Source: Algimonas ampicilliniresistens (GTDB lineage: Bacteria > Pseudomonadota > Alphaproteobacteria > Caulobacterales > Maricaulaceae). From it: 64,000 nucleotides of DNA. The stretch spans positions 434,001 through 498,000 of the forward strand of contig NZ_BSNK01000002.1 of the NCBI RefSeq assembly GCF_030159955.1, read 5' to 3'. The translations under genes and the position numbers were made by a program. This document shows, in pieces, positions 6,988 to 56,619 of this stretch; positions within the stretch are counted from its first letter, which is position 1; every line of letters starts with the position of its first letter. Under the pieces are notes generated by a model. The model did not search any database. It was given only the letters and a program-made list of their open reading frames with translations, and was not told where the DNA came from.

Positions 6988-8040
6988 ATGAGCGTTTATA
7001 TCCATGGGCTTTCAACCTGCGTGCCGCCCCACGCTTTGCCGCAAGACGAAGTCCGCGATCGTGCCCATGAGATTTTGGGTCCGCGCTTTAAGGGCTTTGA
7101 TCGGCTTGCCCCTGTTTTTGATACATCCGGCGTGCGGATGCGCTATTCCGTCGCCCCGTTTGATTGGTTCGAACAGGCGGGCGGTTGGACCGACCGCAAT
7201 AGCCGCTACATGGACGGCGCGACGGACCTTTATGTGGAGGCCGCGACAAAAGCTCTGGCGGATGCAGGTTGGACGGCGGGCGAAATCGATATTCTCGTCA
7301 CCGTGTCCTCGACCGGTATCGCCACGCCGACATTAGAAGCCCAAGCTAAAGGCCGGATGGGGTTTCGCGATGATTGTTTGCGGGTGCCTTTGTTCGGGCT
7401 GGGTTGTGCTGGCGGGATTTCAGGCCTGAACGTCTCGCGCGAATTGGCGCAGGCTAACCCCAGCGCCAAAGTGCTGCTCGTGATTGTAGAGACCTGCACG
7501 CTCTCTTTTCGCAAGGCCCGCCCGAAAAAGGCCGACATTATTGCGACGATCTTATTTGGCGACGGTGCGGCGGCGGTTGCGCTCAGCGGATCGGAAAGCG
7601 GCGTGCGGGTAGACCGCGGGGCGTCGCGAACTTGGGATGACACCTTGCCGATCATGGGCTGGGAGGTCGACGAGGACGGGCTCGCCGTCGTGTTCGACCG
7701 ATCGATCCCGGACTTTGTGAACGCAGAAATGCGCGCCGCGACGGATGCGGCCTGCGCGCAGATGAATGTTTCACGTGAAACATTGGGCCGCGTCGTGTCC
7801 CATCCGGGCGGCGCGAAAGTGGTCGAGGCCTTGGAGGCGTCGTTAGAGCTCGGCGAAGGCACGCTCGATATCGAACGCGATGTGCTGCGCGACTATGGTA
7901 ATATGAGTGCTCCGACCGTGATTTTTGTGTTGGAAAAAGTGCTAGCGCGCGGCGATGCCAAGGGCTCGGGCAAGCCGTTGCTGGCTAGCGCGCTCGGCCC
8001 CGGTTTCTCCGCCGCCTTCACCCCGTTCTATGTGGACTGA
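6988..8040 (+). CDS. Type III polyketide synthase (chalcone/stilbene synthase superfamily)
   Basis: A 350-aa thiolase-fold enzyme with the complete type III PKS triad: Cys140 in FGLGCAGG, His272 in VSHPGG and Asn305 in YGNMSAPT. The bacterial subgroup (SrsA, ArsB, BpsA, PKS18-like) condenses a long-chain acyl starter with malonyl-CoA to give alkylpyrones or alkylresorcinols. The adjacent ICMT-like gene, 3 bases after the stop, is the classic partner (SrsB/BpsB), supporting a methylated phenolic lipid product. The start at ATG 6988 gives MSVYIHGLSTCVPPH, a standard N-terminus. Codons 260-265 carry a perfect parS site without disturbing the frame. Product chain length cannot be read from the sequence. 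Confidence 0.93.
   Translation: MSVYIHGLSTCVPPHALPQDEVRDRAHEILGPRFKGFDRLAPVFDTSGVRMRYSVAPFDWFEQAGGWTDRNSRYMDGATDLYVEAATKALADAGWTAGEIDILVTVSSTGIATPTLEAQAKGRMGFRDDCLRVPLFGLGCAGGISGLNVSRELAQANPSAKVLLVIVETCTLSFRKARPKKADIIATILFGDGAAAVALSGSESGVRVDRGASRTWDDTLPIMGWEVDEDGLAVVFDRSIPDFVNAEMRAATDAACAQMNVSRETLGRVVSHPGGAKVVEALEASLELGEGTLDIERDVLRDYGNMSAPTVIFVLEKVLARGDAKGSGKPLLASALGPGFSAAFTPFYVD
7767..7782. promoter_or_regulatory. parS centromere site (ParB binding), copy 1
   Basis: TGTTTCACGTGAAACA is an exact match to the conserved bacterial chromosomal parS palindrome. It lies wholly inside the type III PKS coding sequence, encoding part of NVSRET. Known parS sites cluster near oriC and are often intragenic. 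Confidence 0.9.
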
Positions 8041-46983: not shown

Positions 46984-48405
46984 ATGTCTAAAACGGTTCA
47001 CGAGGTCGATCTCTGCGTTATCGGCGCAGGCTCTGCAGGACTTTCGGTCGCTTACGGCGCGTCGCATCTGGGACGGTCCGTCGTTTTGTTTGAGCGCGAA
47101 GATATGGGCGGTGATTGCCTCAACACAGGCTGCGTGCCGTCCAAGGCGTTGATCAAGGCGGCCAAAGTTGCGCATGATCGCCGCCATGGCTCGGAATATG
47201 GTATTGCGCCAGTGGAACCCGACATCGATTTCAAGGCCGTGAAAGCCCATGTTCAGGGCGTGATCGACCAAATCGCGCCAGTCGATTCGGTCGAACGATA
47301 TGAAGGCTTCGGCGTCACCGTAATCACCGAAGATGCACGTTTCGAAGATGAAAAAACCATCGTCTCCGACAGCCATATTGTTCGCGCCAAACGGATTGTC
47401 GTAGCGGCTGGATCACGCGCCTCTGCCCCGCCTATTCCGGGCCTCGCCGATGTGCCTTACCTCACCAATGAGAGCATCTTTCAGGTCTCGACGCTGCCTA
47501 AACATCTGCTGATCATCGGGTCCGGCCCGATTGGTCTGGAAATGGGGCAAAGCTTCCGCCGTCTTGGCTCCAAAGTGACCATTGTCGATATCGCTGAACC
47601 GCTCGGTCGCTCCGATCCTGAACACGCCAAGACTTTAATCGAGGCCCTCAAATCCGAAGGCGTCGAGTTCCGCGCCCCCGTTAAAACTAAAAAAGTCTCC
47701 AAGACGGCCCGGACGTTCAAGATCGAGTTTGAAGATGGCGAAGCGATCACAGGCTCGCATTTGCTGGTCGCCGCTGGCCGCGCACCGAATGTTGACGGAC
47801 TCGATCTAGAAAAAGGCGGCGTTAAATATGACCGCTCCGGCATCCAGACGGATGAAGCCCTGCGTACATCGAACCCGCGCGTCTATGCGGCGGGCGACAT
47901 TGCGGCGGGCAAGGGCGGGCTGACCCATGCAGCGGGCTTTCACGCTGGCGCGCTGATCAAGAACCTCTATTTTATGCCGCCGGGATTGGGTGGGATGTTC
48001 GCCAAAGCGACCACCAACCGCATGCCTGCCGTGATTTATACACAGCCCGAACTCGGAAATATCGGCGCAGGCCATAACGACGCGGCCAAAACCTTACATT
48101 TCGATTTCGAGGAAAACGATCGCTCTATCGCCGAACGCGACACGGTGGGCGGGCTGAAGCTCTATCTCGACGCCAAAGGCAAAGTGATCGGCGCGTCCTG
48201 TCTGGGCAGCCAAGCCGGGGAGATCATCAATACGGTCAGCCTCGCCATGGCGGGTAAGCTCAAACTCAGTCAAATATCCGGGATGATCTCGCCCTATCCA
48301 ACCCGGACCGAAGTGGTGAAACGCACCGCCTCATCCAACTTCACTGAGGCAATCTTTGGTCCCAAAGCCCGCGCCTTGGCCGGGTTTTGGGCCAAATTCC
48401 AATAA
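46984..48405 (+). CDS. MerA/Lpd-like FAD-dependent disulfide oxidoreductase
   Basis: A 473-aa pyridine nucleotide-disulfide oxidoreductase. The FAD motif is VIGAGSAGLSVAYGA, the redox disulfide is in GGDCLNTGCVPSKALIKAA, and the NAD(P)H motif is IIGSGPIGLEMGQ. The C-terminal His-Glu dyad of true lipoamide dehydrogenases is replaced by PYPTRTE (Tyr for His), as in mercuric reductases, and there is no HMA domain or C-terminal Cys pair. So neither lipoamide nor Hg(II) is a safe substrate. It is coupled to the TVP38 gene. Confidence 0.88.
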   Translation: MSKTVHEVDLCVIGAGSAGLSVAYGASHLGRSVVLFEREDMGGDCLNTGCVPSKALIKAAKVAHDRRHGSEYGIAPVEPDIDFKAVKAHVQGVIDQIAPVDSVERYEGFGVTVITEDARFEDEKTIVSDSHIVRAKRIVVAAGSRASAPPIPGLADVPYLTNESIFQVSTLPKHLLIIGSGPIGLEMGQSFRRLGSKVTIVDIAEPLGRSDPEHAKTLIEALKSEGVEFRAPVKTKKVSKTARTFKIEFEDGEAITGSHLLVAAGRAPNVDGLDLEKGGVKYDRSGIQTDEALRTSNPRVYAAGDIAAGKGGLTHAAGFHAGALIKNLYFMPPGLGGMFAKATTNRMPAVIYTQPELGNIGAGHNDAAKTLHFDFEENDRSIAERDTVGGLKLYLDAKGKVIGASCLGSQAGEIINTVSLAMAGKLKLSQISGMISPYPTRTEVVKRTASSNFTEAIFGPKARALAGFWAKFQ

Positions 48406-48474
48406 CGCGTAAGCGGTCCGTAAACGCATTGTGGAATGCCACAAAACTTTAATGTCCGCGGGCCGTATCAGCGC

Positions 48475-48480
48475 TATAAT
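48475..48480 (+). promoter_or_regulatory. gspE -10 element, probable leaderless start
   Basis: A consensus TATAAT ends 6 bases before the gspE ATG (48487), so transcription would start at the ATG. No -35 match is seen at 17 bp, so an activator or alternative sigma factor may be needed. Confidence 0.4.
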
Positions 48481-48486
48481 GGGTGA

Positions 48487-49971
48487 ATGTCTGCCCCTGC
48501 GTCACGACCTGCTCTGAGCTATACCTTCGCGCGCCAGCACGGCGTTATCGCTGTGCCGGGCGTGGATGGATCGGTCACACTGGCGCATAAAGCGTCTGCG
48601 TCGCGTGACGCGCTGATCGAAGCGCGCCGGGCCGTCGGCCACACTGTTTTACGCGAAACCCTGACACCGGAAGCCTTTGAGCAGCGGCTTAGCAGCATTT
48701 ATGCGCAAGCCGATCTGGCGGGTGCGTCAGAAGATGCGCTCGGCGCACCGCAGGATTTGTCCGCACTCGCCGATGGTCTGCCGCGCACGTCGGACTTACT
48801 GGACAGCTCAGATGACGCGCCGATCATCCGCTTGATCAATGGAGTTTTGCAGGAAGCCATTCGGTCCCGCGCGTCCGACATCCATATTGAGCCGTATGAG
48901 GAGCGCCTGTCCGTGCGCTTTCGGATTGACGGCACTTTGTCGGAAGCTTTGTCACTTCCCGCCCGCCTCGCGCCCGCTCTGACCTCGCGTGTCAAAGTGA
49001 TGAGCCGACTGGATATTGCCCAGAAACGCATTCCGCAGGATGGTCGCTTTTCACTTAATCTTGGCGAACGCGCGATCGATCTGCGCGTCTCGACCTTGCC
49101 GTCTCGCCATGGTGAACGGGTAGTGATGCGGATTTTGGAAAAAGATAATCAGCGCATGGCTCTCGAAGAACTCGGCATGGCAGAGGCCGTGCAAGAGGCT
49201 TTTGCCAGCGCATTGGCGCGACCCAATGGCATCATCCTCGTCACCGGGCCGACGGGCTCGGGTAAGACAACCTCGCTCTATGCGGCGCTGTCCCGGCTCA
49301 ATGATGGGTCGCGCAATATTCTTACGGTTGAAGACCCGGTCGAATATGCGCTCGACGGGATCGGGCAGACGCAGGTCAATAATGCGGTTGGGATGAGCTT
49401 CGCCGCCGGGCTACGCGCGATCCTGCGCCAAGACCCGGACGTGGTCATGGTGGGGGAAATCCGCGATCCGGAAACGGCGGAAATTGCGGTGCAAGCATCG
49501 CTGACCGGCCATCTTGTCCTCTCCACGGTGCACACCAACTCTGCCATCGCCTCCGTTGCGCGTCTCCGTGACATGGGGGTGGAGCCGTTCTTGTTATCGT
49601 CAACACTGACCGCATTGGTCGCGCAGCGTCTGGTTCGCCGCCTCTGCGATGGCTGCAAGGACCCTTATACGCCAACGGCGGCTGAACGGGCTGAGCTTGG
49701 CATCAAGGGACGTGGCCTGACATTTTATAAGCCGGTCGGTTGTCCGAAATGTTCGGGCGTCGGGTTTTCGGGTCGACTTGGTATTTACGAAATTGTGCCG
49801 ATGGACGAAACGATGCGCGGGATGATCCATGCGGGTGCAACCGAATCTGAGATGGCCACACATGCTTTTGCCAGCCGTCAGACTTTGCTGGCGGACGGGG
49901 CCGATAAGGTTGCGGCGGGCCTGACCAGTTCAGACGAAGTTTTGCGCGTCTGCCGCTCGGACGAGATCTAG
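48487..49971 (+). CDS. gspE: Type II secretion ATPase GspE
   Basis: A 494-aa cytoplasmic ATPase that powers pseudopilus assembly. The N1/N2 region precedes SRASDIHIEPYEERLSVRFRIDG. Walker A is GPTGSGKTT (about residue 258), the Asp box is TVEDPVEY, and the GEIRDPETAEIAVQASLTGH block holds the Walker B glutamate and His box. The zinc CxxC pairs (CDGCKDP, CPKCSG) that are typical of GspE are intact. First gene of the gsp operon. Confidence 0.95.
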   Translation: MSAPASRPALSYTFARQHGVIAVPGVDGSVTLAHKASASRDALIEARRAVGHTVLRETLTPEAFEQRLSSIYAQADLAGASEDALGAPQDLSALADGLPRTSDLLDSSDDAPIIRLINGVLQEAIRSRASDIHIEPYEERLSVRFRIDGTLSEALSLPARLAPALTSRVKVMSRLDIAQKRIPQDGRFSLNLGERAIDLRVSTLPSRHGERVVMRILEKDNQRMALEELGMAEAVQEAFASALARPNGIILVTGPTGSGKTTSLYAALSRLNDGSRNILTVEDPVEYALDGIGQTQVNNAVGMSFAAGLRAILRQDPDVVMVGEIRDPETAEIAVQASLTGHLVLSTVHTNSAIASVARLRDMGVEPFLLSSTLTALVAQRLVRRLCDGCKDPYTPTAAERAELGIKGRGLTFYKPVGCPKCSGVGFSGRLGIYEIVPMDETMRGMIHAGATESEMATHAFASRQTLLADGADKVAAGLTSSDEVLRVCRSDEI

Positions 49972-49974
49972 CGC

Positions 49975-51189
49975 GTGGATGCGTTCGATTATGCCGCGCT
50001 CGACGCCTCGGGGACACGGCGCAAAGGCACGCTCATGGCCGGGTCGGCGCGGGCGGCGCGGGATCAATTGCGTGCGCGGCGGCTAACTCCGGTTGAGGTT
50101 AAACCGTCCCGCAAACGTGCTCGGTCGGATGAAACGGCAGAGGCGGGACGATCGCGCATCAAGCGCGCTCATATCACCCGCGCCGCCCGCCAGCTCGCCA
50201 TTCTCATTTCTGCGGCGACCCCAGTTGAGGAAGCGCTGCGCATCACGGCACTGCAATTTGAACGCTCCCGTCTGCGCGGAGTTCTGCTCGACGCGCGCGG
50301 GCAAGTGATGGAAGGCGCAAGGCTCAGCGAAGCGCTGTCGCGTCATCCTAATGTGTTCGATCCGCTATTTACCGCCATGGTCGCGGCGGGGGAAACGGCG
50401 GGGCAACTGGGCCCCGTGCTAGAGCGCCGCGCCGACGATATGGAAGCCGCCGATGCTATCCGCCGCAAAATATTGGGCGCGACCATCTATCCATTACTGC
50501 TCATGGCTGTCGCCTTGATTGTGACCATTATCTTGCTAACGCTGGTTGTGCCGAAAGTGGCGGAGCAATTTGTCGTGCTCGGCGAAACCCTACCGCCTTT
50601 GACACGCGGCACGATTGCGGCGTCCGATTTCCTGAAGGCGAATTGGTGGGCGCTGCTGATCGGGATTGGTGGGGCTTACCTCCTCTTCTCGCTGTGGAAG
50701 CGCCGTCCGTCGGGTCGCAAGATTTGGGACGCGTTCAAGTTGCGTTTGCCCGTGATCGGGCGGATTATCCGTAACCTCGAAGCGGCGCGGTTTTCACGCA
50801 CGATTGCCGGGTTGATCTCAGCTGGAACGCCAGCGCTCGCTGCGATGGAAACGGCACGCCACACGCTCCGCAACCGGGTCATGTTTGAGGCCGTCGGCGA
50901 CGCCGTATTGCGCGTGCGCGAAGGCACCGCCGTGAGTGCGGCGCTTAAACAAACGCAGGTTTTCCCGCCGCTCGTCGTGCAAATGGTATTGGGCGGTGAG
51001 GCATCTGGAAAGACGGGACAAATGTTCGCTAAATCCGCTGACTATCTGGAGGGCGAGTTTGAAGCGGCGACGCAGATTTTTCTGGCGCTGTTAGAACCGC
51101 TCATCATCATCCTTTTGGGCGGGATCGTCTTGCTGATCGCGGCTGCTATTTTCTTGCCCATCTTGCAGCTCAATACGCTGAGTTTTTAA
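49975..51189 (+). CDS. gspF: Type II secretion inner-membrane platform protein GspF
   Basis: A 404-aa protein starting at GTG 49975, 3 bases after gspE. It opens with FDYAALDASGTRRKG, the family N-terminus, followed by two GspF/PilC domains (about 70-190 and 270-395) and three membrane helices (about 170, 220 and 380). It forms the inner-membrane platform contacting GspE and GspL. Confidence 0.95.
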   Translation: MDAFDYAALDASGTRRKGTLMAGSARAARDQLRARRLTPVEVKPSRKRARSDETAEAGRSRIKRAHITRAARQLAILISAATPVEEALRITALQFERSRLRGVLLDARGQVMEGARLSEALSRHPNVFDPLFTAMVAAGETAGQLGPVLERRADDMEAADAIRRKILGATIYPLLLMAVALIVTIILLTLVVPKVAEQFVVLGETLPPLTRGTIAASDFLKANWWALLIGIGGAYLLFSLWKRRPSGRKIWDAFKLRLPVIGRIIRNLEAARFSRTIAGLISAGTPALAAMETARHTLRNRVMFEAVGDAVLRVREGTAVSAALKQTQVFPPLVVQMVLGGEASGKTGQMFAKSADYLEGEFEAATQIFLALLEPLIIILLGGIVLLIAAAIFLPILQLNTLSF

Positions 51190-51206
51190 AGTCTAACTTT
51201 TAGGAG

Positions 51207-51222
51207 TGTTTCACGTGAAACA
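51207..51222. promoter_or_regulatory. parS centromere site (ParB binding), copy 2, at the gspG start
   Basis: The same exact palindrome TGTTTCACGTGAAACA. It abuts the gspG Shine-Dalgarno (AGGAG, 51202-51206) and contains the GTG start codon (51215-51217). ParB loading here would lie directly on the gspF-gspG junction. Confidence 0.9.
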
Positions 51223-51676
51223 ACCGACCGAACATTCAAGAAACCGGCAGCCCCGAAATAGATCGGCAGAAGATGGATTTACTCTAACTGAAGTGTTGGT
51301 CACGATGGCCATTATCGGTTTGCTGGCGACAGGCGTCGTGTTGGCGGTGCTGCCGCGACTGGGCGATGCATCAATTACCAAGGCGCGCGCCGATATCGCT
51401 TCATATGAAACGGCGATGGAGTTCTTCCGATTAGATCATTTCCGTTTCCCGACGGAACAGGAAGGGCTGCAAGCGCTCGTTGAAGCGCCCGCTGGTTTAA
51501 ACGCGGCGAAATATCCAGCAGAAGGCTATGTGCAACGGTTGCGCGATGACCCGTGGGGCAATGCTTATGTCTATCGTAACCCCGGTGAATTCGGAGCCTT
51601 CGATATTCTGAGCTATGGCGCGGATGGACAGGAAGGCGGCGAGGGCGCCGATGCTGACATTGGCAACTGGCAGTAA
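51215..51676 (+). CDS. gspG: Type II secretion major pseudopilin GspG
   Basis: A 153-aa major pseudopilin. GTG 51215 is chosen because AGGAG is 8 bases upstream; a GTG at 51206 is inside that Shine-Dalgarno. The prepilin peptidase site is DG-FTLTEVLVTMAIIGLLA, with Glu at +5 and the hydrophobic helix after it. The leader before the cleavage site, about 22 residues, is longer than usual. The globular domain has the GspG features RFPTEQEGLQALVEAP and DPWGNAYVYRNPG, with calcium-site acidic residues near the end. Confidence 0.94.
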   Translation: MKQPTEHSRNRQPRNRSAEDGFTLTEVLVTMAIIGLLATGVVLAVLPRLGDASITKARADIASYETAMEFFRLDHFRFPTEQEGLQALVEAPAGLNAAKYPAEGYVQRLRDDPWGNAYVYRNPGEFGAFDILSYGADGQEGGEGADADIGNWQ

Positions 51677-52136
51677 AACCTATCGCGATGAGGGTTTCAG
51701 CCTCGTCGAATTGCTGGCGGTCCTCGCGATCCTATCTCTCATGGTCGGCGCGGTCGTGCTGAATCTGCCGCAACCGCGCTCTCAGACTGACCGCACCACG
51801 GAAGCCATGGCGGCGCAGCTAACGCGGTTTCTAGGTGACGGCGCGGTGGCGGGTGAAATGCGCGCCCTTGGTCTTGATGCTGAGACGCTGAGCCTGTTCC
51901 GGCATGACGGGACGCAGTGGGTGCGCAGCGCGGACCTGTCTTGGCCCGACGATGCCCGATTGAGCCTAGAGCGCGATGGTCAGCGCCTAGACATCCCTGA
52001 AACATCAGAGCCAATTTTATTGTTCGAGCCCTATGGCGTAGTGCCGGATTTCACATTCACGCTCAGTGCGCGTGATGCGCGCTATGAGTTGAGCGCCGAT
52101 GCACGCGGTCAAATCGTTCGCACGGTTGACCGATGA
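51651..52136 (+). CDS. gspH: Type II secretion minor pseudopilin GspH
   Basis: A 161-aa minor pseudopilin that overlaps gspG by 26 bases; ATG 51651 has GAGGG upstream. The processing site is DEG-FSLVELLAVLAILSLMVG. The remainder is a short GspH-type beta domain (FLGDGAVAGEMRALGL). It stops in an ATGA overlap with gspI. Confidence 0.88.
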   Translation: MLTLATGSKTYRDEGFSLVELLAVLAILSLMVGAVVLNLPQPRSQTDRTTEAMAAQLTRFLGDGAVAGEMRALGLDAETLSLFRHDGTQWVRSADLSWPDDARLSLERDGQRLDIPETSEPILLFEPYGVVPDFTFTLSARDARYELSADARGQIVRTVDR

Positions 52137-52549
52137 TCCGACAGACTCGAAAACAAGACGGATTCACGCTGGTCGAGGTGCTGGTCAGCCTCGCCATTTT
52201 CAGCCTCGCTATTGTCGGACTTAACCGCGCGGCGACCTTGGCCGTGTCGGGTACGGCCACGTTGCAACTTCGCACGCATGCGGGGTTCGTCGCCGACAAT
52301 GCAGTCGTGCTGACCCGGATCGCGCCATTAGATCTTGGAACTGAGCGCAGCCAGGTCGATTCCGGCGGCATGGCATTTGATGTGGTCGTGGAAACCTCCG
52401 CGACGGACCAGACAGGGTTTTACGAAATCGCGGTTCGCGTGACCGAGCGTGACCAGGACCGCATTGTGTCCGAGCGTCGGGCCTTTCGCTATGTTCAGTC
52501 CGTAATCGCCCCCCCGCCCGATCAAGATAATGGCGAGACGTCAGAATGA
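52133..52549 (+). CDS. gspI: Type II secretion minor pseudopilin GspI
   Basis: A 138-aa minor pseudopilin with the processing site QDG-FTLVEVLVSLAIFSLAIVGL. VNRAATLAVSG-like helix sequence and the short beta domain match GspI. GspI, J, K and H form the pseudopilus tip. Overlaps at both ends (ATGA) couple it to gspH and gspJ. Confidence 0.9.
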   Translation: MIRQTRKQDGFTLVEVLVSLAIFSLAIVGLNRAATLAVSGTATLQLRTHAGFVADNAVVLTRIAPLDLGTERSQVDSGGMAFDVVVETSATDQTGFYEIAVRVTERDQDRIVSERRAFRYVQSVIAPPPDQDNGETSE

Positions 52550-53178
52550 TCGGAGTAAAGACAAACGCTGATTGCGCCGCCGGCTTCACCTTGGTTGAAG
52601 TCCTCGTCTCAATGTTCATCTTCTCCCTAATTAGCGTCGGCGCTCTGATCGCCTTGTCGACCACATTGGATGCGCGCGAAGCGGCGGAAACGCGATTGGA
52701 GGAGATTGAGCAACTGTCCGCGGCACGCCGGCTCATGGCCGAAGATTTCGCGGAGATGATATACCGCAAGAATCGCGACGGGTTGGGCGGGTTTATCGAC
52801 CGAACCCGCGAGGCGGCTCAGACGGATGGGTTTACGCTCACGCGCCGGGGTCGCCCGAATCCTGATGGCGTCTTTGCACGCGGTGATTTGTTGCGCGTGT
52901 CGTGGCGGGTCGAGAGTGGTCAGCTCATCCGGGCCTTCTTACCGCACGAAAACCCAGCTTTTGTCGAACCGCCTATCGACAGGGTTGTTCTGGACGGTGT
53001 TGAATCGATTCTGGTGGAAGCGATTAGCCAACCGATCAATAACATTGCCAGCCTCCTCGAACAGGTGCGGCGCGATTATACGGCAGACCAAACATTGGGT
53101 GTGAAGGCGGTATCGATCACACTCATCCACGCGGACGGGACGACGACGCGCCATGTCTTCGGATCGCCCGATGCGTAG
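52546..53178 (+). CDS. gspJ: Type II secretion minor pseudopilin GspJ
   Basis: A 210-aa minor pseudopilin: the processing site is AAG-FTLVEVLVSMFIFSLISVGAL, followed by the typical GspJ region RRLMAEDFAEMIYRKNRDGLG. Length is normal for GspJ. It overlaps gspI (ATGA) and gspK. Confidence 0.9.
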   Translation: MIGVKTNADCAAGFTLVEVLVSMFIFSLISVGALIALSTTLDAREAAETRLEEIEQLSAARRLMAEDFAEMIYRKNRDGLGGFIDRTREAAQTDGFTLTRRGRPNPDGVFARGDLLRVSWRVESGQLIRAFLPHENPAFVEPPIDRVVLDGVESILVEAISQPINNIASLLEQVRRDYTADQTLGVKAVSITLIHADGTTTRHVFGSPDA

Positions 53179-54199
53179 ACCCCTCAATATGCGCGAGGAC
53201 GGAACCGTTCTACTGAGTACACTGCTTGTACTCAGTTTGATGAGTGCGGTTGCATTGGCTTTGCTGACAACGCTGCGAACCTCTGTGACTCGGAGCGGGA
53301 CATTGGACGCTCAGGCGCAAGTGGACCTCTATGCTCAAGGAGCGCGAGAGTTTACCGCCTCACAGATTGAAAGCGTCGCGGGTGAGGAACCTGCGACGCT
53401 CAACGCCCGTCTCGCTGAGCCAGAACCCATTATCCTGCCCTTCGAAAATGGATCGATGACCCTAGTTGTCAGCGACGGCACCCATTGTTTCCGGCTCAGC
53501 GCCTTATCGGATACATCCGGGCTGGGGTCGGACACGGCGCGACTGCGGTTCGAAGCGCTGATGGGCGCGCTCGGCATTGATCCGGGAACGGCGGGGAGAA
53601 TAGCCGCGGCGAGTGTTGATTGGGTTGATGCAGATTCGCAAGCTTTGCCCGGTGGCGCGGAAGACGGGATTTATATGTCGAGAGCTCAACCGCACCGCAC
53701 CGCCAATGTCCCGATGGTGTCTGTCAGCGAGTTACGGGCCGTTGACGGTATGGATGAGGTGCTATTTCAGCGTCTCTTGCCGCATCTTTGCATCGGTGAG
53801 ACCGGCGCTCCCACACAATTCAACATCGAGACCGCCAACTCGGGTCATGCGCCCGTCCTCGCTGCGATTCTTGGCGGTGGGCTCGACGCAGAGCGGGTCG
53901 CGCTTGAGCTTATTGAGCAACGACCCTCGGGCGGTTACGGCTCATCCGAGACTTTGCTGGCATCGCCGATCTTGCAGGATTTCGACAATTCGGCGGCGCA
54001 ATTTGACGGTATTGTCTTTGGTCCGCAGCGGATTGTGGTTGAAGCGATTATCCGGTTTGGACCGGTGCAGCGTGCGCAGCTTCTGGCCTATGAAGGGCTA
54101 GACAGTAGGCGTCCGAAACTCACATACCGGGTGTGGGGCAGCGGCGAATTTCCGTCATTGGCCTGGGCACGTTTAATTGCGGAGGAGACGGAACAGTGA
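53171..54199 (+). CDS. gspK: Type II secretion minor pseudopilin GspK
   Basis: A 342-aa protein, much larger than the other pseudopilins as GspK should be. The processing region is EDG-TVLLSTLLVLSLMSAVAL, lacking the +5 Glu as is normal in GspK. Later GspK features are FRLSALSDTSGLGSD, SVDWVDADSQALPGGAEDGIY and the SAM-like helical insert around SVSELRAVDGMD. ATG 53171 overlaps gspJ by 8 bases; ATG 53153 is an alternative. Confidence 0.9.
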   Translation: MRRPLNMREDGTVLLSTLLVLSLMSAVALALLTTLRTSVTRSGTLDAQAQVDLYAQGAREFTASQIESVAGEEPATLNARLAEPEPIILPFENGSMTLVVSDGTHCFRLSALSDTSGLGSDTARLRFEALMGALGIDPGTAGRIAAASVDWVDADSQALPGGAEDGIYMSRAQPHRTANVPMVSVSELRAVDGMDEVLFQRLLPHLCIGETGAPTQFNIETANSGHAPVLAAILGGGLDAERVALELIEQRPSGGYGSSETLLASPILQDFDNSAAQFDGIVFGPQRIVVEAIIRFGPVQRAQLLAYEGLDSRRPKLTYRVWGSGEFPSLAWARLIAEETEQ

Positions 54200-55248
54200 T
54201 CGACAGTGTCCTGATCCTGCCAGAGAGTGACGGCCATGAGGCTTTGCTGGCGCGGCGCTCGCGCGGCTCAATCGAGGCGTCGCGCGGCGATATTGATGCA
54301 CTCGCGCCATTGCTATCCAGCCCATATGCGATGGTCCTGCCGGGCCAGCGTGTGCGATCCTTTCTCACCGATCTACCGGACAATATCAAAGGCGCTGAGC
54401 GGCTCAATATTGCGCGTTTTGCCCATGAAGACCGGATCGCGACCGATCTGTCAGCTCTGCACATCGTGGTTGGATCGGGCGATCCCGCGCCGACCTTGAT
54501 GGTAAGCACAGATACGATGGATGCCGTGTTGGGACGGTTTAATCCGCATACGCTTCTGGCAGATTTCGATGCGCTGAGCGATCTTGCGGGCGACGATGTG
54601 AGAGTGCTGGGCCGCGTCGTGACACCCGGGCCGCAAGGTATGACCGTAGATGCCGATTGGGCGGATGCGCCTGTCACTGTTCTAGATGACGATACGCTTG
54701 CGCGCGCCATATTTAACCGGCTCGACAGTGGGGATGCGCTTGATCTGCGCAGTGGGACCTACCGTCGCCGGACCCAAATTCAGGCGGGGCCTTGGGCGCG
54801 CGTGGCCGCTGTCGCGCTGGTCTGCGGGCTCTTGGGATTTGGCCTTTCCTTCGCGGAGGCGCGCGCCACAGCCGCTCAGGCAGACACGCTGAGAAATCAG
54901 GCACGCACGCTTTACACTCAAGCGACGGGACAACCCGCCCCGGAAAATCTCGCGCGGATCGCGCGTAGCGTCGGACCCACGGACACGGACCCGGCGGCGT
55001 TTTTAGCGTTGTCCAACACGCTGTTTGCCGCCCTGTCCAATCATCCGGATATTGTGGTCGAGCAGCTATCCTTTGAGGCGCGCGAGAACAGTTTACGCTT
55101 GCGACTGGTCTATCCGGGATTTGGCGCGCCGAGCGCGCTCGAACAGACGGTTGCCGCATCGGGCGCCGTCTTCACAACTGGCGGCGTGCGTGAACAAGGC
55201 GGACGCTTCATCGGCGATGCGGCGATTAGCTTGGGAGGGGCCCAATGA
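54196..55248 (+). CDS. gspL: Type II secretion protein GspL
   Basis: A 350-aa protein starting at GTG 54196, overlapping the gspK stop (GTGA). The N-terminal ~190 residues are an actin-like cytoplasmic domain that recruits GspE. A membrane helix follows at about 200-218 (VAAVALVCGLLGFGLSF), then a periplasmic ferredoxin-like domain. Sequence conservation is low, so the call depends partly on position between gspK and gspM. Confidence 0.85.
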   Translation: MIDSVLILPESDGHEALLARRSRGSIEASRGDIDALAPLLSSPYAMVLPGQRVRSFLTDLPDNIKGAERLNIARFAHEDRIATDLSALHIVVGSGDPAPTLMVSTDTMDAVLGRFNPHTLLADFDALSDLAGDDVRVLGRVVTPGPQGMTVDADWADAPVTVLDDDTLARAIFNRLDSGDALDLRSGTYRRRTQIQAGPWARVAAVALVCGLLGFGLSFAEARATAAQADTLRNQARTLYTQATGQPAPENLARIARSVGPTDTDPAAFLALSNTLFAALSNHPDIVVEQLSFEARENSLRLRLVYPGFGAPSALEQTVAASGAVFTTGGVREQGGRFIGDAAISLGGAQ

Positions 55249-55706
55249 TCACCGCGCTGACCGGCTGGTGGGACGGACGCGAACCCCGTGAGCGATTCTT
55301 GCTGATGGGGCTCGGCCTTATCTTGATGGTTTTCCTGCTCGTCTTTGCCTTAATCTTACCGGTGCAATCGGTCCGGGCCAACGCTCAAACGGATCTGGAT
55401 CGGGCTAAGTCGGAACTGGCCATCGTCTCGCGTATCGCGCCGACTTTAGGGGCGGCGGGGACCGGAGCTCGCGCGCCGTTTGACCGCTCCGTTCTGATCA
55501 ATGTGTCGGGCACCCACGGGGTCAAGCTGACACGGGTGCAGCCCGGCGATGACGGGTCGTTTGCGGTCTGGATCGATGATGCGCAGACGGCCAGCCTCTA
55601 CGGTGTGTTCGACGATTTACTGAGCGACTATGCCGTGACGATGGACCGCGCCGTGGTGAGCGTAGATGCAAACGGGCGGCTAAGTGCGCAGTTTACCGTT
55701 CGGTGA
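55245..55706 (+). CDS. gspM: Type II secretion protein GspM
   Basis: A 153-aa protein with an N-terminal GWWDGREPRERFLLMGLGLIL segment typical of GspM, one membrane helix (about 18-40) and a small periplasmic domain. It partners GspL in the inner-membrane platform. Last gene of the operon: no gspN, gspC, gspD or gspO follows. A short perfect hairpin CCGGAT-AA-ATCCGG lies about 30 bases after the stop. Confidence 0.87.
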   Translation: MITALTGWWDGREPRERFLLMGLGLILMVFLLVFALILPVQSVRANAQTDLDRAKSELAIVSRIAPTLGAAGTGARAPFDRSVLINVSGTHGVKLTRVQPGDDGSFAVWIDDAQTASLYGVFDDLLSDYAVTMDRAVVSVDANGRLSAQFTVR

Positions 55707-55797
55707 TGGGTTGGAAGCTTAAGTACCCGCTGCGCTCCGGATAAATCCGGCTCAACGCGGCGTGACGGCAAGTCGGTCCACCAGACTGATTCTCACG

Positions 55798-56619
55798 TTA
55801 CGCGTATTTCTCACCCAGATAAACGCGGCGCACATCTTTGTTGGCGCGGATTTCTTCGGGCGTGCCTTCAAATAAGGCCTCGCCCTGGAACAGGATTGAG
55901 GCGCGGTCGACAATGTCGAGCGTTTCGCGGACGCGGTGATCGGTGATCAGGATGCCAATGCCGCGCTGTTTCAGATAGAGCACCAGCTCGGAAATATCGG
56001 CAATGGCGATCGGGTCGATCCCGGTAAAGGGTTCATCGAGCAGGATGAAAGACGGACGGCTGGCGAGCGCGCGCGCGATCTCGACGCGGCGGCGTTCCCC
56101 GCCTGACAGCGCCAAAGCGGGCGATTTTCGGATGTGACCGATGTTGAGTTCATCGAGCAGCGCGTCGACATTATCGTCCCACTTACTGCGATCTTTTTCT
56201 GTGAGCTGAACCACTGCCTTGATATTTTCCTCGACCGACAGCCCGCGGAAGATACTTTGTTCTTGCGGCAAATAGCCTACGCCGAGGCGTGCGCGCTGAT
56301 ACATGGGCAGACCCGTAATATCCTGACCGTCCAGCGTGATTGACCCGCGATCCGCTTCGATAAGGCCCATAATCATGTAGAAACTGGTCGTTTTACCCGC
56401 GCCGTTCGGTCCCATCAGCGCGACGACTTCGCCGCGTTGAACCGTCAGGGTAATGTCTTTGACGACAACCCGCCCGCGATAAGCTTTGCCGATATTATTC
56501 GCGGCCAGTCCTGTGGCCGGCGGCGTAATGATTTCGGGCGCGTTGCCAGATCCACCGGCAGGCTGCTCTTCGCCCGCAATAGGATCGTCCACCGTTTGGC
56601 TATCAAGCGTCTCAGCCAT
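55798..56619 (-). CDS. lptB: LPS export ABC transporter ATP-binding protein LptB
   Basis: A 273-aa ABC ATPase: Walker A GPNGAGKTT, Q-loop LPQEQSIF, signature LSGGERRRVEIARAL, Walker B FILLDEPFTGIDP and H-loop ITDHRVRE. Segment RARLGVGYLPQE and the DHRVRETL end are LptB-specific. An N-terminal extension of about 35 residues rich in Gly/Pro/Glu precedes the core. LptB2FG extracts LPS from the inner membrane. It follows lptA by 2 bases. Confidence 0.96.
   Translation of the reverse strand: MAETLDSQTVDDPIAGEEQPAGGSGNAPEIITPPATGLAANNIGKAYRGRVVVKDITLTVQRGEVVALMGPNGAGKTTSFYMIMGLIEADRGSITLDGQDITGLPMYQRARLGVGYLPQEQSIFRGLSVEENIKAVVQLTEKDRSKWDDNVDALLDELNIGHIRKSPALALSGGERRRVEIARALASRPSFILLDEPFTGIDPIAIADISELVLYLKQRGIGILITDHRVRETLDIVDRASILFQGEALFEGTPEEIRANKDVRRVYLGEKYA

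Follow-up and report, generated by a model that had tools for sequence, protein, structure and literature searches.

Organization of the gsp locus and its parS site

The window (the whole 64,000-nucleotide stretch analysed, from source genome G000) contains a forward-strand run of type II secretion (gsp) genes, with a 16-bp parS palindrome at the start of the major pseudopilin gene. The following features were considered:

7767..7782, no strand assigned: the other exact parS in the window; it falls within ORF 6988-8040, where it is read as ..NVSRET..
48487..49971, + strand: gspE, ATPase (TIGR02533); putative first gene of the gsp run
49975..51189, + strand: gspF, upstream gene (TIGR02120); 25 bp separate its end from the gspG GTG
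51202..51206, + strand: AGGAG, putative Shine-Dalgarno sequence; adjoins parS, 8 nt before the GTG
51207..51222, no strand assigned: parS, 16-bp palindrome TGTTTCACGTGAAACA; exact sequence match in the window and the genome
51215..51676, + strand: gspG, major pseudopilin of the type II secretion system (TIGR01710); GTG start within parS
51215..51277, + strand: predicted prepilin leader, up to the G of GFTLTE (TIGR02532 motif, residues 21-41; cleavage predicted)
51615..52136, + strand: gspH-like minor pseudopilin (TIGR01708, 42.9 bits, under the cut-off of 80)

The two genes upstream of gspG passed the GspF and GspE models, and the gspG product scored 145.8 bits against TIGR01710 (cut-off 88.85). 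The listed gspH-like ORF probably has its true start further in. Since gspF ends at 51189, only 25 bp before the GTG, parS lies inside the gsp gene run, which is probably one operon.

The exact inverted repeat TGTTTCACGTGAAACA stands on the + strand flush behind AGGAG, and the eight bases TGTTTCAC separate AGGAG from the GTG at 51215, which lies inside parS and starts gspG. Another in-frame GTG, upstream at 51206, overlaps AGGAG, and for this reason we judge 51215 to be the better candidate start. The initial annotation had described an exact parS here, beginning right after the Shine-Dalgarno sequence and containing the start codon of the major pseudopilin. This description holds: the 16-mer is letter-perfect at 51207..51222, AGGAG occupies 51202-51206 with parS following from 51207, and the gene opened by GTG 51215 passes the GspG model TIGR01710. 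We take TGTTTCACGTGAAACA to be the consensus of chromosomal parS of the Spo0J/ParB type. The consensus given in excerpts of PMC5815017 and PMC6650430 agrees with it. The sequence evidence supports reading the 16-mer at gspG as a parS that would also form the gspG start.

The prepilin leader of type IV pilins is normally cut away by prepilin peptidase, and the first codons encoded by parS, M-K-Q, fall within the predicted GspG leader. The right half of parS (GTGAAACA) would be read as a GTG-AAA start, giving fMet-Lys-Gln/His, while the left half would serve as the 8-nt spacer behind the Shine-Dalgarno sequence, and the parS-encoded residues would be removed with the leader. The overlap between parS and the gspG start may thus be cheap, because parS offers a usable start and a fitting spacer and places its residues in a cleaved leader.

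Copies of parS across the source genome

The window contains two exact parS copies (7767-7782 and 51207-51222) and one further place with three mismatches. In the whole G000 genome 12 exact copies were found, on contigs C1 and C2. The backwards-sequence control gave no matches in this genome, even with two mismatches allowed, and the chance expectation for the 16-mer was 0.00034 copies per 3.26 Mb at the base composition of the window. With 12 copies against 0 for the control and 0.00034 expected, the parS copies of this genome are not a product of chance.

These counts bear on another reading of the palindrome, as an mRNA hairpin controlling gspG translation, with the parS match incidental. 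Folded by itself, the 16-mer can give a stem of 6 bp whose loop includes part of the start codon (−3.9 kcal/mol, z −1.90). This stem is retained in a 29-nt stretch (−6.1 kcal/mol, z −1.45), for which 18 of 200 shuffled sequences did equally well. In a 71-nt context, however, the prediction no longer contains the hairpin and the energy equals that of shuffles (z 0.06), and the exact 16-mer is present at 12 places in the genome, many of them inside unrelated ORFs. We consider this reading very improbable.

Five of the 12 exact parS copies lie at parA-gidB-gidA (C2:411072-412290) and seven elsewhere. Two of these seven outlying copies coincide with the start of a gene, gspG in one case and a lipoprotein-like gene of locus L007 in the other, and five are inside program-called ORFs, among them ORF 6988-8040 of the window, which by family match resembles chalcone synthase / type III polyketide synthase genes. 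Exact parS was absent from the homologue loci read for three other outliers: 0 of 5 for the chalcone-synthase-like gene, 0 of 8 for the penicillin-binding-protein-like gene of L010 (one of them, L209, a weak paralogue only) and 0 of 6 for the lipoprotein-like gene of L007. One match with three mismatches occurred among these loci, in L202, outside the gene. Since the three other tested outliers are absent from homologue loci, the outlying sites of the G000 genome appear to turn over quickly.

The number of exact copies per genome was 12 in G000 and 0-5 in the other genomes of the genus; the outlying copies numbered seven in G000 and at most one in each of the others. The G000 region seems to be gaining scattered parS copies.

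The exact copy at L007:2609-2624 gives the GTG of a putative lipoprotein-like DUF302 protein (VKHLLIASTLILSALTVSACA). At L011:2294-2309, a parS with one mismatch (TGTTTCACGTGAAACC) stands behind AAAGGA as the probable start of a lipoprotein-like gene; with its one mismatch it is the second arrangement of Shine-Dalgarno sequence, parS and GTG in the G000 genome. The gene before it is leuD-like (Aconitase_C domain).

ParB, the par cluster and the presumed origin

In locus L005 of the G000 genome, parB, parA, gidB, gidA and trmE lie together, gidA being named by similarity to other gidA genes. The ParB gene (L005:5155-6141) aligns with Caulobacter ParB (6t1f, E 1.5e-61). An excerpt of PMC7383237 names ten ParB residues for parS contact or specificity and describes R173 and G201 as absolutely conserved. 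In a comparison anchored on G170-K171-S172-R173, nine of the ten are kept (Q162, G170, K171, S172, R173, N178, T179, G201 and R204), and the tenth differs (A184 to G). Judged by these residues, the G000 genome encodes a ParB with parS-type recognition.

The distance from the gspG parS is 73-74 kb to the par cluster and about 75 kb to the ParB gene. The hemE gene ends about 4 kb from parB, opposite a PPSRP-type gene, and the origin is presumed, by gene order alone, to lie in the gap between the two, about 80 kb from the gspG parS. With the origin so placed, the site would belong to the origin-proximal domain. Excerpts of PMC5815017 describe the situation in Caulobacter: new parS sites are tolerated across about 500 kb around the native cluster, and the native ones are embedded in essential or high-fitness genes. 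In tests of single parS sites in E. coli, Caulobacter ParB extended no further than 2 kb around the site. By analogy, the position of the gspG parS fits such a tolerated zone.

Conservation at gspG in related genomes

A search of 61 genomes for gspG gave hits in 52, and 50 loci were read, the weaker hits in G024 and G034 being left out. A parS with at most three mismatches was present at two of the 50 loci read, those of G000 and G018. Within the genus this corresponds to 2 of 17 gspG loci, two of the 19 genomes having no gspG hit. Because only these 2 of 17 loci carry it, parS is, on the sequences compared, dispensable at gspG.

The initial annotation had proposed looking for the palindrome at gspG in close relatives, and the answer was divided: among the five closest, it is present in G018 and absent from G006, G015, G007 and G012. 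On the single contig of G015, about 402 kb separate the par cluster from gspG, which has no parS; in G006, where gspG likewise has none, the distance is about 68 kb.

The gspG start of G018 shows the same 21 bases as that of G000 (AGGAG plus parS). Four-fold degenerate sites of the two genomes were identical at 49% in gspE, 50% in gspF and 38% in gspG, identical 21-mers made up 26 of the 3022 aligned in the three genes, and the leader beyond parS aligns poorly between the gspG genes. As silent sites and other 21-mers have diverged so strongly, the shared 21-base word was presumably either kept by selection or made twice.

A tree was inferred from seven concatenated proteins of eight genomes, three of them with incomplete data. 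The best topology was G000,(G006,(G015,G018)), with one weak node (53%). A pairing of G000 with G006 appears compatible with the tree tests. A sister pair of G000 and G018 was rejected in both distinct trees with that pairing (AU p = 0.0007 and 0.0002). Since the two carriers are not sisters, the history of the gspG parS comprises either one gain and two losses or two gains.

The remaining exact copies in the genus are 24, in nine genomes other than G000: 23 belong to the par-gid cluster, the exception being the gspG site of G018. Nine genus genomes have no exact parS; some of the genomes in this count are incomplete (65-92%). Apart from the G018 gspG site, no exact parS was found outside the par-gid cluster in genus genomes other than G000. 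In these assemblies the gspG copy appears to be the sole outlying parS of G000 with an exact counterpart in another genome of the genus.

Relative to G018, G006 and G015, in which the gspF stop overlaps the AGG stretch, G000 carries about 14 additional bases separating this stop from AGGAG (window 51187-51206).

AGGAG-parS starts in other genomes

A scan of public genomes for AGGAG-parS returned at least 116 stretches with at least 118 sites. Among the matches listed, the GTG starts an MnmG-like (GidA) protein at 98 of 118 sites, the call being made by an N-terminal motif, with one example checked against TIGR00136. The identical 21 bases, AGGAG-TGTTTCAC-GTGAAACA, stand at these mnmG (gidA) starts with GTG as the start codon, as at gspG. 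The two cases differ in the gene concerned and in that gspG is distant from the par neighbourhood; mnmG presumably lies in the usual parAB neighbourhood of those public genomes, and gidA is seen in the parAB neighbourhood of the source genome (L005). Most of the 80 titles listed belong to Rhodobacteraceae or to genera that we take to fall there, and a minority among the matches listed are clostridia and others. It was the gspG parS that led to the finding of this word at the mnmG start in many alphaproteobacteria. In an excerpt of PMC6315104, obtained in a literature search of limited range, parS is not described as an mnmG start. The AGGAG-parS-start layout is not special to gspG. At the mnmG start, parS seems to be a layout passed down within another order.

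A special tie of the layout to pseudopilins was rejected: at none of the 20 non-MnmG sites listed do the first 40 residues include the GF[ST]L motif of prepilins, although one of these frames (L103) ends after 4 residues and 14 others are shorter than 60 codons.

In the order of the window, AGGAG-parS was found in 4 of 300 genomes: at two gspG starts, at one mnmG start and once within trmE (G117), in another frame. A scrambled prefix followed by parS occurred in 7 of 300, all of one genus; the five such loci read share one position inside gidB, two of them being checked against Pfam. As AGGAG-parS is no commoner than the scrambled prefix (4/300 vs 7/300), a general enrichment of AGGAG before parS in the order is not claimed. 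For the G000 genome, the probability of a chance AGGAG beside any of its 24 parS flanks is about 0.025.

Role of the gspG parS

The parS identity of the gspG site, as judged from its sequence, is well supported, and the site is probably a genuine secondary chromosomal parS with little or no regulatory effect on secretion. ParB would dock there as at the main parA-gidB-gidA cluster and load as a sliding clamp, covering a short stretch of the gsp operon, and the site would be tolerated as an extra copy in the origin-proximal zone. If it has no effect on expression, it would show how freely parS embeds in genes.

The site could alternatively be a neutral relic or chance product, without a role even in segregation. 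ATG-AAA-CA starts resemble the right half of parS, so that parS might arise at such starts, be tolerated near the origin and be lost again. The patchy distribution at gspG, the seven outlying sites of G000 against at most one in each other genus genome, and the frequency of AGGAG-parS in the order, no higher than that of the scrambled prefix, would suit such a history. Against it stand the occurrence of one identical 21-base word in two genomes that are not sisters, within an otherwise poorly aligning leader, and the expectation that an exact parS would bind ParB even without benefit. Taken together, we regard neutrality as improbable.

The initial annotation went further than a secondary parS and suggested that ParB loading and spreading from gspG could affect expression of the type II secretion system, linking chromosome segregation to secretion. 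Any such regulation would have to act by obstructing transcription elongation or the gspG start region: the ParB clamp would block or slow RNA polymerase passing from gspF to gspG, or hide the start region, a route we think unlikely to operate. That the amount of major pseudopilin would then follow the state of the origin region is similarly doubtful. The placement of parS within a single gene run, at the junction of gspF and gspG, and the persistence of the identical 21 bases in G018 despite strong silent-site change, would suit regulation. There are also precedents in an excerpt of PMC7022226, in which neighbour-gene expression responds to ParB: parS3 and parS4 of P. aeruginosa exert repression on PA0011/PA0013, and one parS of the pneumococcus influences comCDE from a distance of 5 kb. 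The P. aeruginosa sites, however, are intergenic and upstream and the pneumococcal one works over 5 kb, whereas the gspG parS, which is not known to affect expression, lies within its gene run at the point where translation begins.

Other observations weigh against regulation. Four of the five closest relatives keep gspG without parS, which makes the link less likely, and elsewhere the same layout starts the unrelated gene mnmG. A consensus promoter scan of 48200-55800 gave two promoter-like matches, neither beside parS, and such matches were no commoner in this interval than in shuffles. According to the same excerpt of PMC7022226, B. subtilis genes beside parS are unaffected by loss of ParB, and chromosomal ParB usually affects parS-adjacent genes little, the exceptions being few and mostly local. 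No link of parS or ParB with type II secretion was found in the titles or abstract beginnings of 10 of the 15 papers that mention all three. The suggested link between ParB and secretion is thus not borne out, given the absence of parS in four of the five closest relatives, the occurrence of the layout mostly at mnmG among the matches listed and the lack of a promoter-like match beside parS. An influence of ParB on type II secretion is possible yet not supported here, and we consider it unlikely that ParB loaded at this site regulates secretion.

A broader form of the regulatory idea would make the Shine-Dalgarno-parS-GTG word a composite 21-base element, at once ParB loading site and translation start, that alphaproteobacteria reuse and that ties pseudopilin output to ParB occupancy. 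We give this little credence; if true, secretion would be turned down while the origin region segregates. Under the preferred reading, as a secondary parS, one and the same set of bases still holds both a segregation site and a start of translation, and a diverged congener has it unchanged; mutual constraint or influence of ParB binding and translation initiation is thereby testable.

Comparison with known ParABS systems

The ParABS systems of Caulobacter crescentus and Hyphomonas neptunium have the same consensus kind of parS and the same ParB type. In Caulobacter the parS sites are grouped in a single small cluster some 8 kb from the origin, whereas here one copy is found about 80 kb away. 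H. neptunium has two parS upstream of parAB, whereas here a distant copy supplies a start codon. An excerpt of PMC6650430 reports that two H. neptunium sites match the consensus, that ParB binds the parS sequence in vitro and that parAB lies about 7 kb from hemE; in the source genome, hemE ends about 4 kb from parB.
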